Part shown: one piece after another, positions 18,850-25,700 of the stretch | How the letters are laid out: the number at the start of each line of letters is the position of its first letter | How positions within the stretch are numbered: the first letter of the stretch is position 1 | Origin: a virus | IMG/VR virus record: IMGVR_UViG_3300031660_000022 | Location: 1 to 33,665 of that record | Reading direction: 5' to 3' (one strand) | Length of the DNA: 33,665 nt | Position numbers and translations under genes: made by a program | The notes under the pieces: generated by a model | What the model saw: the letters and a program-made list of their open reading frames with translations, nothing else | Database searches by the model: none | Told to the model about the DNA's origin: nothing

Positions 18850-18882
18850 TATTCTTCTCCTTGTTGTTTAACTTATTAACTA

Positions 18883-18895
18883 TTACAGGCTGTAA
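18883..18895. promoter_or_regulatory. Early palindrome copy 1 (operator candidate)
   Basis: Perfect TTACAGGCTGTAA, an odd-length dyad centred on one base. It lies right after the stop codon of the gene upstream and 34 bp before the start of the HTH-repeat gene. The conserved block is wider (18878-18900), and the leader towards the ribosome site (TTAATAAGTTAAACAA) is nearly the same as for copies 2 and 3. Confidence 0.6.
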
Positions 18896-18899
18896 AACT

Positions 18900-20600: not shown

Positions 20601-20634
20601 AATTGTAACTCCTTATTGTTTAACTTATTAACTA

Positions 20635-20647
20635 TTACAGCCTGTAA
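20635..20647. promoter_or_regulatory. Early palindrome copy 2 (operator candidate)
   Basis: Perfect dyad TTACAGCCTGTAA, 34 bp before the start of the gene at 20600. The leader TTAATAAGTTAAACAA between it and the ribosome site is shared with copy 1, so the whole leader appears duplicated. Confidence 0.6.
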
Positions 20648-20651
20648 AAGT

Positions 20652-21371
20652 TTATTTAATGACAAAGCCTGTTGTATCCTTTCTTGCTTTGCCTTTTGCT
20701 TTTAATCCAACAATAACACCTTTGTCATCATCAAATCTAAAGTCATTAACATCACCGTCAATAACCTTTCTACCCATAAATGTAGTAGGTAATTTATCTT
20801 TAAAAACTACTGCAACATTATGTTTGGTTTCGTTTACTACTTTGTCAATTAGGTGCTTATAACCATCACGCCCACTATAACTAAAAGTCAGGTGATAATT
20901 ATCAGGTACTTCTTTAAAAGCCCATTTAACATTCTTTGTATAATCATAGAACTGCACCGTTGGAAACTTCTTAACTAATTTCATATAGTTTATATCCGAT
21001 AATACATTCAACCTAATCACAGGTTTAACGCCCTCCTTTTCACACTTATACTTAAAGGCATTTATATCACCCTCAACAGTAGCCATAAACGCTTTACGGT
21101 CATCTCTATAAAACTCTGTTTTACGTGTCCTTGCATTAATAACATTAGGGAAAGCACCTCGCCCAGCACTAAATAAACACCCTTTCTTACACCCTGCCTT
21201 ATCAGCCATTGCACATACATTCACACCCTCAACAGTATCAGCAGGTGCAAGAGATAATCCCGCTACTACATACTTCTCACCGTTGTCTTTAATTAATTTA
21301 GCGTTAGTACCTGCACTCATTAAAGCACCATTCCAACTACCGCTCCATTCCTTTTTAATTAACTTATTCAT
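20652..21371 (-). CDS. Gp88-like phage protein with Cys cluster
   Basis: A 239-aa protein. Residues 51-71 contain NVCAMADKAGCKKGCLFSAG, giving C53, C61 and C65, followed by R-x-R-K-T-E-F-Y-R-D-D-R-K-A-F at 81-95. This arrangement matches what I know of the phage Gp88 family (first named from mycobacteriophage), whose function is unknown; the Cys cluster may bind a metal or iron-sulphur centre. The second half alternates strands and helices, with NVLSDINYMKLV and VAVVFKDKLP. It is the only gene between palindromes 2 and 3. AAGGA precedes the start. Confidence 0.7.
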   Translation of the reverse strand: MNKLIKKEWSGSWNGALMSAGTNAKLIKDNGEKYVVAGLSLAPADTVEGVNVCAMADKAGCKKGCLFSAGRGAFPNVINARTRKTEFYRDDRKAFMATVEGDINAFKYKCEKEGVKPVIRLNVLSDINYMKLVKKFPTVQFYDYTKNVKWAFKEVPDNYHLTFSYSGRDGYKHLIDKVVNETKHNVAVVFKDKLPTTFMGRKVIDGDVNDFRFDDDKGVIVGLKAKGKARKDTTGFVIK

Positions 21372-21406
21372 AATTTATCCTTATTGTTTAACTTATTGTT
21401 TAACTA

Positions 21407-21419
21407 TTACAGCCTGTAA
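21407..21419. promoter_or_regulatory. Early palindrome copy 3 (operator candidate)
   Basis: Perfect dyad TTACAGCCTGTAA, 35 bp before the Gp88-like gene. The leader repeats a TTAAACAATAAG unit twice between the dyad and the ribosome site. Confidence 0.6.
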
Positions 21420-21427
21420 AACTTTAA

Positions 21428-21523
21428 CTACCAGCCGTGATATAACGCTATCGTTTCTAAAACATACACCCACATAATCATTAGGGCTAACCATATTACT
21501 GCATTTACCATAAATTTAGTCAT
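21428..21523 (-). CDS. Tiny membrane protein (31 aa)
   Basis: A 31-codon gene behind a strong AAGGAGG. The product MTKFMVNAVIWLALMIMWVY is almost all one transmembrane helix, ending LYHGW. The start is 3 nt from the stop of the gene upstream. Small early membrane proteins can alter host envelope functions or block superinfection; nothing here says which. The strong ribosome site supports expression despite the short length. Confidence 0.5.
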   Translation of the reverse strand: MTKFMVNAVIWLALMIMWVYVLETIALYHGW

Positions 21524-21525
21524 CA

Positions 21526-22270: not shown

Positions 22271-22314
22271 TGGTTTTCCTTATTGAGTGAAATATAGCCT
22301 GTTTCTAATAACTA

Positions 22315-22327
22315 TTACAGGCTGTAA
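22315..22327. promoter_or_regulatory. Early palindrome copy 5 (operator candidate)
   Basis: Perfect TTACAGGCTGTAA between the first and second early genes, 44 bp before the start at 22270. It sits just after the stop of the gene at 22334. Confidence 0.6.
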
Positions 22328-22333
22328 AACTTA

Positions 22334-22774
22334 TTACTTTTGCTTGATTGATAAATCAGTCTTAAATTTCGACTTCATTTTCTTCTTAAAATCTTCAATT
22401 TCTTCTTCAAGCGTTTTAATCGTTGGTGCTTTAACATCAACTATAACAAATAAATAAGGGCGTTCAGACTGTGGCAAAGTTGATTGTGGGTCGCGTTTTA
22501 GGCGTATTGTTTGAGTCAATGCTTCTTCTTCGCCAATATCAAAATGCAATTCTTGAGTTATTTTCTGGTTTAGGTTATTCTGAAATTTACTGATTTTAGT
22601 CTTGAATATGGCATCATTAGCTTGGCTATTGGCAAAGTTGACAAAGTCTGATTGACTTTCTTCAGTCTTTAAAATTTCAAGTATTGATTTTTGAATTACA
22701 CCCTTTACTTTATCCGCTTGGATGCATAAATCTAGTAGTTGATTGTAAGTCTTATTGTTAGTTGAGTTTTTCAT
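22334..22774 (-). CDS. First early gene, hypothetical protein (146 aa)
   Basis: The gene nearest the early promoter, so probably the first protein made after infection. The 146-aa chain is Lys/Glu/Gln-rich and mostly helical. The last 30 residues are a charged coiled-coil-like helix (TLEEEIEDFKKKMKSKFKTD). A central beta segment RPYLFVIVDVKAP could be a small folded core. No known family; there is no resemblance to T7 Ocr. Its codons are even more AT-rich than those of other genes. AAGGT lies about 10 nt before the ATG. Confidence 0.6.
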   Translation of the reverse strand: MKNSTNNKTYNQLLDLCIQADKVKGVIQKSILEILKTEESQSDFVNFANSQANDAIFKTKISKFQNNLNQKITQELHFDIGEEEALTQTIRLKRDPQSTLPQSERPYLFVIVDVKAPTIKTLEEEIEDFKKKMKSKFKTDLSIKQK

Positions 22775-22850
22775 TTTTGGTTTACCTTATGTAGTTATAT
22801 TATGTTTTGCTTATTTAGCTTCTTTTCTTCTTTTCTTCGTTGTTGGGATT

Positions 22851-22878
22851 ATTATAACAGGTCTAACCATAGAGTCAA
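22851..22878 (-). promoter_or_regulatory. Strong host sigma70-type early promoter
   Basis: On the minus strand: TTGACT (22878-22873), a 16-nt spacer, a TG extension, then a perfect TATAAT (22856-22851). Transcription would start near 22844 and give a leader of about 70 nt before the first early gene. This corresponds to the A1-A3 early promoters of T7, used by host RNA polymerase. Confidence 0.75.
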
Positions 22879-23038
22879 GCATTAATTACACTAATTGTTG
22901 AAAATAATTGAAAATAAATTAAAACCCTGTTAAATCAATGAGTTATAAGCCCAATTAGATTGAAAAATATATAGAATAAGCCAATAAGCCCATATATTGG
23001 ATTGTAGAGCCTTTAGCAGTAAAGCCTTGCAATGATAT

Positions 23039-23051
23039 TCACAGGCTGTAA
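23039..23051. promoter_or_regulatory. Early palindrome copy 6 (one mismatch)
   Basis: TCACAGGCTGTAA, matching the other five at 12 of 13 positions. It lies about 265 bp before the first early gene, about 35-45 bp downstream of the expected start of the promoter at 23092-23120. Confidence 0.5.
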
Positions 23052-23071
23052 AAGCAGGAATACTACAAATT

Positions 23072-23087
23072 GTTGCATAAGTGCAAC
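23072..23087. promoter_or_regulatory. Perfect dyad GTTGCA-N4-TGCAAC (operator candidate)
   Basis: A perfect 6-bp inverted repeat with a 4-bp spacer. It overlaps the start point predicted for the promoter at 23092-23120, the classic position for a repressor site. As RNA it would be a small hairpin at the very 5' end of the transcript. Confidence 0.45.
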
Positions 23088-23091
23088 GCTG

Positions 23092-23120
23092 TTCTTAGCA
23101 CAGTTTAATGATATTGTCAA
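23092..23120 (-). promoter_or_regulatory. Possible second host-type early promoter
   Basis: Minus strand: perfect TTGACA (23120-23115), 17-nt spacer, then TGC-TAAGAA (extended -10; hexamer at 23097-23092). The -10 hexamer is only a partial match, but the -35, spacing and TG extension fit. It points at the early genes. Confidence 0.4.
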
Positions 23121-23172
23121 GTTTATTTAAATATAAATATAATCAAGGTGAAAAATATATCTCACAAATAAA

Positions 23173-23216
23173 GGTGTATAACTATGTGGATAACTTGTGC
23201 ATAACTTTGTGGATAA
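23173..23216 (-). other. Cluster of DnaA boxes (putative replication origin)
   Basis: On the minus strand there are two perfect TTATCCACA boxes (23216-23208 and 23193-23185) with TTATGCACA between them (23204-23196), start-to-start spacing 11-12 bp, and a fourth box with one mismatch (TTATACACC, 23181-23173). Chance occurrence of three matches at helical spacing is very unlikely. An AT-rich stretch lies on one side and iteron-like repeats on the other, as in plasmid-type origins. Host DnaA binding is inferred. Confidence 0.7.
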
Positions 23217-23229
23217 CTATTGCCCTATA

Positions 23230-23311
23230 ATAACCAACTGTATTGGTCAACTACTAGCCCATAATAATAACCAACTGTATTGGTCAACTATATAACCAAC
23301 TGTTTTGGTGA
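23230..23311. repeat. Three iteron-like direct repeats (ATAACCAACTGTATTGG type)
   Basis: Copies at 23230-23253 and 23267-23290 match over 24 bp (core ATAACCAACTGTATTGGTCA); the third at 23292-23311 has a single change in its first 17-18 bp. Starts are 37 and 25 bp apart. Each contains CCAA-N5-TTGG, a small dyad. They start 14 bp from the last DnaA box. Repeated sites beside DnaA boxes look like iterons for a replication initiator, but no Rep protein is recognised in the window. Confidence 0.65.
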
Positions 23312-23477
23312 GGTATTCAAGACCCCTATGGGACAATGTGGCGTGTTTGTTTGTTTCCTACCCCCACGCATTTCTCTAATATTTTTAGAAAACATATGGT
23401 AGGTTATTGCTAAACATTGTGGTTGAATCCTGTCACCGAATGCTGTACCTTGTTTAACCTTAACAATAACCTTAAGT

Positions 23478-23650
23478 GATACTACTAGTTCTCCTGGAGA
23501 CTGAGGGGAGAAGAAGCAATAGTATCAAGTAAGGATACTGAGTATGTGTTAACCTGTGTAAGTTACCGATTAAAAACATACTTGTATTCAAACTAGTTAT
23601 TAACATAGGGGAGGAGAAGTAGTAGTCAGTACTTAAACTATTACTACTTC
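23478..23650. other. Two hairpin-forming inverted repeats
   Basis: First: GATACTA (23478-23484) with TAGTATC (23520-23526), and inside it TTCTCC (23489-23494) with GGAGAA (23507-23512). Second: GAAGTAGTA (23616-23624) with TACTACTTC (23642-23650), a 9-bp stem and 17-nt loop. They could be terminators, processing sites or packaging/end structures. No T-run identifies a standard terminator. Confidence 0.45.
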
Positions 23651-23721
23651 TAATACATATTAATAACTTATGTATATAACAATAACTATTACTATATCAG
23701 GGAGCTATTGTTTCTATACAT

Positions 23722-23809
23722 CGAGTAGGGGCTTAGAACATACTTACCTTCAATCAATGGTCATTTACTATATCGATACAGTCAACAGACTACAAGTAAG
23801 CCCCACTCG
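23722..23809. other. Long stem-loop with 13-bp stem (structured RNA or end-processing site)
   Basis: CGAGT-A-GGGGCTTA (23722-23735) pairs with TAAGCCCCACTCG (23797-23809): 13 bp with one bulged A around a 61-nt loop. The inner 8 bp resemble a tRNA acceptor stem, but no T-arm or anticodon arm is visible on either strand. A partial copy of the right arm occurs at 23879-23892, and TATCGATA palindromes at 23771-23778 and 23834-23843 lie in and beside it. Confidence 0.45.
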
Positions 23810-23944
23810 TATTAAAAACCAAGTAGTCCTCGTGTATCGATACGGTGTTCCCCATCTAAGGTGTATAGCGTATGCGCGTTAAGCCCCCACTACATCAGTA
23901 CAGCTGATTGATTTCCAGTGACATCGTATCGGGGATAATGATAT

Positions 23945-23973
23945 TATTCATTATATAAGTAGGGGTTTATAAT
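23945..23973 (-). promoter_or_regulatory. Phage RNA polymerase promoter after terL (phiOR-like, copy C)
   Basis: A 29-bp sequence identical to the repeat at 4560-4588, lying 21 bp past the terL stop codon and pointing into the noncoding region. T7 has phiOR in exactly this place, where it acts in replication and packaging-linked transcription. The same role is inferred here. Confidence 0.7.
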
Positions 23974-23993
23974 AGTCCTTAAGAATCAATGAC

Positions 23994-25700
23994 TTATAGC
24001 AGAGAATAACTGTCGAGGTAGTTAGTTCCTCTAGCCCTACCACCTGCTCCTACTCCGTGCATAAACCTTTCTAAATCAGCATCAAGCTGTTCTTCTTTGT
24101 ACCTAGCAAGGGCATCCTCACTGCTCACACCTACTGACTCAACAATGAATCCTAAGGCAATAGCTAGTGCGTCCAGACGGTCATCGTGACCTAGGCTACC
24201 CCTATCCTTAGATATGTGTGTTAGTTGGTGTATGAGAGAATATGGAAGCCTGGTGTAGTCTGCTACAGCTTCTTTCACATCCTTTCTAACAAGGGAAGCA
24301 TCAATAACTAGCTTATGACTATTCAATAGGGGTTCAAGTACATCAACAATACGCATTTCCTTCTGCTTATGGTTACGAACCTCTTCAATAGAACAAGGAT
24401 AGATTGACCGTAACACTGGTTTAAGTAGCTCAGAGAACATACCATCACCAAAGTTACTCTCGACAACCATTAACTTACAGCTATGTTGCTTAGCAATGGT
24501 AGCCATACGTGTTAGGTTCTCAGGAGTATAACCACCTTGTAAGCCACCTACCTCGCTTATATATATTTTTCCGTGGAGTTGCTTAATGACAGCATAACCT
24601 GTTTCATCCTTACCTCTACCAGAAGGGTCAATAGACATAATGGCATACTCATAAGGAACATACTCACTGTCTACGTGTCCTGCTCTGTAGAACTGGTCTC
24701 CTGTGAAGCCTATGTTAGGGATATCATCCATATATGATGAACGAGAACTAGAGTAGCTGATAGATATAGGACCTTTGTTATCATCTAAGTCGTGAACAAT
24801 GAAGTCAGCTGTCTTAAGTGGATACTTGTCAGCATCACTAAGAGTAGTATCTAGTTGATACTGCAGCCTAAACCAACTCCTACCAATAGAAGCTTCTCTC
24901 TCTACTAGGTCTTGGTGTGTAAACCTTGAGTCAGTACAGTCTCCTGCTTCTACATCACCCTTCTCGATAGGAGTAGTAATGTAGGAAGCTAGTGTACCTT
25001 GATATACTTCTATATCTTCAGGGTAGCGAGCAGGATATACTACAGTTCTAAAGCCTTTATCTCTCATCTTGTTATAAATAGACTCACCTGATTGAGGTGT
25101 TCCTAACATAATAATCTGAGCCTTGTCAGTAGTCTGTAGAATAGCATCATACTCAGCCACAGTAGCAAGTAGTTTAGCTCTCATCTGTTCAGTAGCAGAG
25201 TTCTGCATACCTTCTACGTCATCAGAAATCAATATTGAAGCTCTGTTACCTTGTAACTGGGATGTGATACCTAGTGACTTAACACTTGGTTGTACTGTTA
25301 CCTCACACCCTGTGACATCGAATGACTTCACAGAGTTTCTCATATCAGCACTAGGCTGTAAGTGTTCTAATATAGGAAGGTCGTAAATCAACCTCCTAAT
25401 GAACTGTGCAATAGCGTCTGAGTGAGCACCTGACTGAGATACAATAAGTACCTTCTCGTTAGGATTTCTCAGCAAACGCCAAGTAACATAAGCACCACAG
25501 ATGTAAGTCTTACCTACACCACGGAACGCCTCCAGAAGGAAACGCTTATCACCAGTCATTAACTGTGATGCTATATCTGTTTGAATGGGGGTGGGACAAG
25601 GTAGGTTAATACCCTCCCACACGTAATTAAGATAGGTTCTGAAGTCATTAACTAATGCTTTCAGTTCTTCTCTTGTTAGTTGTTTGTCATATATTGACAT
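23994..25700 (-). CDS. terL: Terminase large subunit (DNA maturase B, T7 gp19-like)
   Basis: A 568-aa packaging motor (T7 gp19 is 586). The ATPase has Walker A FRGVGKT at 59-65 and Walker B ILISDDVE at 156-163, followed by a LGTPQSGE coupling motif. The nuclease half has MSIDPSGRGKDETGYAVI near residue 350, VESNFGDGMF, and a SLGHDDRLDALAIAL segment near the end, supplying the acidic metal residues. It cuts concatemers and drives DNA into the head through the portal. It is the last late gene before the noncoding region. An AGGAG precedes the ATG. Confidence 0.96.
   Translation of the reverse strand: MSIYDKQLTREELKALVNDFRTYLNYVWEGINLPCPTPIQTDIASQLMTGDKRFLLEAFRGVGKTYICGAYVTWRLLRNPNEKVLIVSQSGAHSDAIAQFIRRLIYDLPILEHLQPSADMRNSVKSFDVTGCEVTVQPSVKSLGITSQLQGNRASILISDDVEGMQNSATEQMRAKLLATVAEYDAILQTTDKAQIIMLGTPQSGESIYNKMRDKGFRTVVYPARYPEDIEVYQGTLASYITTPIEKGDVEAGDCTDSRFTHQDLVEREASIGRSWFRLQYQLDTTLSDADKYPLKTADFIVHDLDDNKGPISISYSSSRSSYMDDIPNIGFTGDQFYRAGHVDSEYVPYEYAIMSIDPSGRGKDETGYAVIKQLHGKIYISEVGGLQGGYTPENLTRMATIAKQHSCKLMVVESNFGDGMFSELLKPVLRSIYPCSIEEVRNHKQKEMRIVDVLEPLLNSHKLVIDASLVRKDVKEAVADYTRLPYSLIHQLTHISKDRGSLGHDDRLDALAIALGFIVESVGVSSEDALARYKEEQLDADLERFMHGVGAGGRARGTNYLDSYSLL

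Follow-up and report, generated by a model that had tools for sequence, protein, structure and literature searches.

The locus described here raises the question of what a row of DnaA boxes is doing at the end of a T7-like phage genome. T7-like phages are the standard example of phages that replicate independently of the host and have constitutive early promoters. The original prediction held that this DNA may recruit or titrate host DnaA or may be a plasmid-type replicon module taken up by the phage.

The window, i.e. the whole stretch of DNA that was analysed, is a virus record (G000) of 33,665 bases with genes mainly on the minus strand. Its gene content is T7-like (RNA polymerase, single-stranded-DNA-binding protein, helicase-primase, DNA polymerase A and terminase), and the phage is a T7-related virus of marine bacteria. 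The nearest named phage by RNA polymerase is Lauvirus lau218 (40% identity; 74% for the terminase large subunit, TerL), which, unlike the window, has no box cluster. Related contigs, sought within bacterial genomes as a clue to the host, were not found there. The T7-type gene order suggests that the contig is permuted and that the gap between TerL and the first early gene (22775–23993) represents the joined right and left genome ends. The array sits between TerL and the early genes of a genome with phage RNA polymerase, T7-type helicase-primase and DNA polymerase, which is the context of a T7-type end (Autographivirales). A search for structured RNA gave no Rfam match and no tRNA. The features of the region are collected in Table 1.

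Table 1. Sequence elements in and around the gap between TerL and the first early gene.
Feature	Position	Strand	Remarks
First early gene, no assigned function	22334..22774	-	ORF; family search without match
Strong candidate sigma70 promoter ahead of first early gene, TTGACT-16-TATAAT	22851..22878	-	consensus scan
Candidate early sigma70 promoter P1, TTGACA-17-TAAGAA, weak -10	23092..23120	-	TTGACA common to L006-L009 and L012; missed by the consensus scan
AT-rich block, 90% AT	23104..23143		composition scan; highest of all 40-mers in the window
ATATATTTTTCACC element, possible right edge of terminal repeat	23147..23160	-	conserved in relatives with and without boxes
DnaA box TTATACACC, one mismatch	23173..23181	-	relatives have TTATCCACA or TTATCAACA
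DnaA box TTATCCACA	23185..23193	-	exact match
DnaA box TTATGCACA	23196..23204	-	exact match to TTATNCACA; relatives have TTATCCACA or TTATCAACA
DnaA box TTATCCACA	23208..23216	-	exact match; invariant in six aligned relatives
Palindromic repeat copy 1, core ACCAA-N5-TTGGT	23227..23253	-	27 nt, identical to copy 2
Palindromic repeat copy 2, core ACCAA-N5-TTGGT	23264..23290	-	27 nt, identical to copy 1
Palindromic repeat copy 3, diverged	23289..23315	-	74% identity; holds ACCAA-N5-TTGGT
CCCATAGGGG element, ~25 nt inside predicted end	23323..23332	-	common to Studiervirinae
T7-type concatemer-cleavage motif TAGAGAAATGCGTGGGGGTA, cut predicted at 23358/23359	23359..23378	-	matches AAAAATCTGAGTGGGTA|TCTCA at Studiervirinae terminal-repeat starts
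Imperfect hairpin, loop CAGTCTCC, ~100-180 nt before predicted cut	23464..23540	-	loop conserved in relatives
Putative phage RNA polymerase promoter, phiOR-like, directly after TerL	23945..23970	-	19-mer 3x in window, 0.03 expected
Terminase large subunit (TerL)	23994..25700	-	PHROG 38, E=5.6e-104

The four minus-strand boxes start 12, 11 and 12 bp apart. Exact TTATNCACA is found four times in the window, three times in the cluster, and shuffles give 2.25 per window; three boxes within 50 bp arose in 0 of 2000 shuffles of the window and in 0 of 20000 shuffles of the gap (dinucleotide shuffles in both cases). The tandem boxes with helical spacing proposed at the outset, three exact and one with a single mismatch, are therefore clustered beyond chance, and their regular spacing, which is kept in relatives, is fit for cooperative binding. 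The proposed AT-rich block is equally real, and 50-mers starting at ~23110–23120 are among the 0.2% least stable in the window. Boxes, repeats and the AT-richest 40-mer together span 23.10–23.32 kb within the long non-coding gap. As for the three direct repeats of 17–24 bp that had been claimed, three copies are present, but they are 27 nt long, palindromic and irregularly spaced (37 and 25 bp), and for these reasons they are unlike plasmid iterons. The motif ACCAA-N5-TTGGT is confined to these repeats and has no other occurrence in the window. The repeats were also considered as phage promoters and rejected, because the putative promoter 19-mer is a different sequence, ATAAACCCCTACTTATATA, present three times, and the repeats occur at this site only.

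There is no support for a plasmid-type replicon taken up by the phage. Like DnaA-dependent plasmid origins of the RK2 oriV type, the locus combines DnaA boxes with direct repeats and AT-rich DNA, all inside 200 bp, and the AT-rich block lies beside the boxes. It differs from them in the irregular and palindromic repeats in place of regularly spaced iterons, as well as in the lack of a Rep initiator gene and of plasmid homology: no Rep or partition gene was found among the early and replication proteins scanned and no Rep-like family among 30 proteins of the window, and plasmid DNA matched only in box-like stretches of 22–52 nt.

The position of the array relative to the genome end can be predicted by comparison. 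After TerL follow the putative phage promoter, the hairpin with loop CAGTCTCC and the motif AAATGCGTGGGGGTA; the contigs of some relatives (L016 and L018) stop near this hairpin, 414–484 nt past TerL. In Studiervirinae records AAAAATCTGAGTGGGTA stands immediately before the terminal repeat, with CCCCCATAGG or a run like it ~25 nt further on. This arrangement is also that of the window and its relatives, in which the cleavage motif and the CCCCATAGGG element are placed as in Studiervirinae. As the cleavage motif lies ~140 nt upstream of the boxes, the boxes belong to the left-end control region; with the predicted cut they would occupy +143 to +186 of the left end. The deposited ends of Shigella phage A7 are an exact 177-bp repeat, which begins at the point corresponding to this cut. 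Terminal repeats in deposited Studiervirinae records are mostly 158 to 222 bp long, and in P-SSP7 the repeat measures 206 bp and the leader ahead of the first ORF 728 bp (PMC3350473). Given these lengths, the boxes are probably located inside the terminal repeat, of which the contig holds one copy. The left end is probably the first to enter the cell. A linear end of the T7/P-SSP7 type, with direct terminal repeat, resembles the present one in the TerL–early gene gap, the cleavage motif and the phage promoter after TerL. The end positions given here are predicted, unlike those of such phages, and no report of DnaA boxes in Autographiviridae, Berlinvirus or T7-type ends was found in a literature search for which subscription journals were mostly beyond reach.

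Some further elements were seen in this part of the genome. The palindrome GTTGY-N6-RCAAC occurs at left ends in the window (23072–23087) and in L017, L025, L032, L035, L036 and L040 (13 against 0.17 expected). A palindromic leader element, TTTTACAGNCTGTAATAGTTA, recurs ahead of early genes (18850–18899, 20601–20651, 21372–21525 and 22271–22333 of the window). The early gene at 20652–21371 belongs to the GP88 family (PF17338), relatives of which are found near DnaA-box arrays in other contigs.

Conservation was followed in 41 relatives collected by TerL. Loss of the boxes in close relatives had been named beforehand as a refuting result, and the outcome is mixed: the array is in the same place in L009, L010, L014, L015, L017 and L022 and is absent from the nearest relatives, L006 and L007 (in both, TerL is 100% identical to that of the window), and from L008, L012 and L013. 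On the TerL tree this distribution needs at least three changes. The best conserved alignment blocks are the cut motif, CCCATAG, the box array and the ATATATTTTTCA element, and the repeats adjoining the array, as well as its flanks, differ among the uncultured relatives that keep it. Among the clustered 9-mers of the stretch from TerL to the early genes, TTATCCACA ranks first, with 12 of 36 loci; the runner-up among words unrelated to the box reaches 4. The expected conservation of box spacing is borne out, all box-to-box distances up to 60 bp in a sample of ten loci being 11, 12 or 23 bp. A second box position, directly after TerL, is used in L025, L032, L035, L036, L040 and L054. A phage promoter beside these boxes in L035 and L036 is not established, as the candidate occurs only once per record.

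Similar arrays are present at the left ends of the T7-like Berlinvirus (Studiervirinae; Escherichia phages P483 and nasanit, Shigella phage A7, Enterobacter phages NJ2 and vB_SEqdws-315). Here 3–5 copies of TTATCCACA form a cluster which, like that of the window, follows closely on the cleavage motif in the gap separating TerL from the early genes, and nearly all TTATNCACA sites of these genomes fall in this region; in A7 the boxes lie inside the exact terminal repeat. The record of vB_SEqdws-315 lists E. coli K-12 as host. Unlike in the window, they are on the opposite strand with a less regular spacing of 11–45 bp, and palindromic repeats of the window type are absent. The Berlinvirus arrays are an independent recurrence. 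The array is not a general feature of T7-like phages, since a box pair after TerL was found in only 2 of 79 broader relatives and 2 of 80 Studiervirinae-type loci; its absence from most of both groups makes the gain look repeated and patchy. Other viral contigs that encode T7-like replication proteins also have arrays close to the terminase or to early genes. In the viral collection at least 120 contigs have a triple DnaA array versus 1 for the reversed-pattern control. Box orientation is mixed in these other lineages, some of which have about ten boxes. In the phage collection DnaA-box arrays were also seen in microviruses, in Lactococcus 949-like phages and in large (~107–121 kb) enterobacterial phages looking T5-like. 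Perfect consensus, cooperative-type spacing, an array kept while its flanks differ and recurrence in Berlinvirus make recruitment of host DnaA likely, as judged from sequence comparison, and this part of the original prediction is well supported.

Where boxes are missing, and sometimes beside them, consensus matches for other host regulators were found in the same region. They are parS sites (L020, L021, L022, L031 and L056), Fur-like sites (L012, L013, L020, L031 and L033), sigma54-like sites (L031, L032, L035 and L036) and NtrC-like sites (L035 and L036). Compared with shuffles, parS sites number 4 vs 0.0, Fur sites 12 vs 1.0, sigma54 sites 12 vs 0.8 and NtrC sites 5 vs 0.03, all identities being consensus matches from a motif panel partly chosen after the sequences had been seen. 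Sites for seven other regulators (CRP, FNR, LexA, PhoB, NrdR, PurR and ArgR) were not enriched in the same-region scan. In 120 contigs picked solely for triple arrays, a sample with some near-duplicates (L221 and L323) in which DNA far from the array is mostly coding, all 14 exact sigma54 or Fur sites (11 and 3, respectively) lie within 500 bp of the array, and the remaining 883 kb contain 0.

Individual sites may be listed as follows. Exact parS-type palindromes TGTTYCACGTGRAACA follow TerL in T7-like contigs at L020:8083, L021:8083, L022:8399, L031:3800 and L056:5936 (0 expected); in L022 the palindrome stands between two DnaA-box arrays, and L342 and L348 have parS plus five DnaA boxes. Exact sites of the sigma54 -24/-12 type and NtrC-type palindromes occur near the left end of lytic phage contigs (L031:3845-4001, L035:8497-8717, L036:3718-3938 and L230:7686). 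Fur-box-like arrays or single sites lie in the region that holds the DnaA boxes in the window, at L012:6559-6700, L013:8660, L020:8246 and L033 ~2750.

Our best explanation, a tentative one that falls a little short of an even chance, is that the array serves cooperative binding of host DnaA at the left-end control region, with an effect on early transcription and, through it, on genome entry. The left-end region of this lineage would then be an exchangeable docking area for host DNA-binding regulators, i.e. DnaA here and proteins with ParB-, Fur-, NtrC- and sigma54-like sites in relatives. Upon entry of the leading end, host DnaA would bind the four phased boxes beside the first early promoters, and the bound DnaA may modulate early transcription and hence transcription-coupled genome entry. 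DnaA boxes in a segment that controls entry have a precedent in T5 (PMC13250531). Because relatives either keep the array or swap it for sites of other regulators, the region has the look of a docking site for host proteins rather than of a borrowed plasmid origin, and the frequent replacement of a missing array by such sites speaks for a general docking or regulatory role. Several observations stand against this explanation. The -10 box of P1 is weak, and TTGACA is missing at this place in the array-bearing L017 and L022. The box orientation is opposite in Berlinvirus and mixed elsewhere, and in L025, L035 and L040 the boxes directly after TerL are ~600 nt before the cut motif. To our knowledge, parS has no obvious role in transcription.

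It is unlikely that the array serves as an auxiliary DnaA-dependent origin, at which DnaA would melt the adjacent AT block and load the host helicase, so that a first replication round could start near the left end ahead of the synthesis of phage enzymes. The four tandem boxes, with gaps of 2–3 bp like those of cooperative DnaA arrays, would suit such an origin, as would the window's AT-richest 40-mer, 30–70 bp on their 3' side, and there is a precedent in an origin with DnaA boxes proposed by prediction in another lytic phage (PMC11512268). Against this stand the loss of the array in relatives with identical TerL, the varying box orientation between lineages and the phage's own T7-type helicase-primase, DNA polymerase and RNA polymerase. 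In addition, the array is replaced by Fur or NtrC sites, which do not start replication. Since Fur, NtrC and sigma54 work in transcription and play no part at origins, the exchange favours regulation over an obligatory origin. An origin that the phage cannot do without is difficult to square with the exchange of DnaA, Fur, NtrC/sigma54 and ParB sites in one region, which agrees with a docking region where host proteins act on early transcription or entry.

The same exchange among sites of unrelated host regulators would also fit a decoy, where the many array copies present after replication titrate host DnaA (Fur, ParB or NtrC in relatives) and thereby halt or reprogram the host. The lineages with about ten boxes agree with this, but four boxes per genome are few, titration needs no fixed place beside early promoters, and the sigma54 promoters point to transcription beyond mere binding; we consider a decoy improbable.

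The injection stop signal of T5, which like the present locus lies near the leading end of a lytic phage, has been described as containing DnaA boxes together with repeats and palindromes (PMC13250531). Elements of these three kinds are present at the predicted leading end here, and host proteins bound to the first-entering DNA may act as a ratchet or may hold up genome transfer for a time. Such an anchor could be any binding protein that is abundant, which would explain the exchange of sites. T5 is an unrelated phage, and its two-step transfer with the A1 and A2 proteins is a T5 feature; we know of no T7-like phage with transfer of this kind. Since an anchor also leaves the sigma54 promoters unexplained and the entry polarity is itself deduced, this possibility is quite improbable. 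Finally, a signal for end processing, with DnaA at the concatemer junction helping to duplicate or protect the terminal repeat during packaging, would agree with boxes adjoining the predicted cut and hairpin and lying within the A7 terminal repeat, but is very improbable, as most Studiervirinae and many close relatives process their ends without boxes.

For T7-like phages in general, it is possible, if rather doubtful, that several lytic lineages use the first-entering end as an exchangeable panel for host regulators (DnaA, ParB/parS, Fur and NtrC/sigma54), entry, early transcription or a dormant carrier state then depending on the replication, iron or nitrogen status of the host. A left end with host DnaA sites, or with parS, Fur, NtrC and sigma54 sites as in relatives, would mean that these phages sense in what physiological state the cell is. 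A simple cultured model for the question of why DnaA boxes recur in unrelated lytic phages, T5 included, would be Berlinvirus grown on E. coli K-12.
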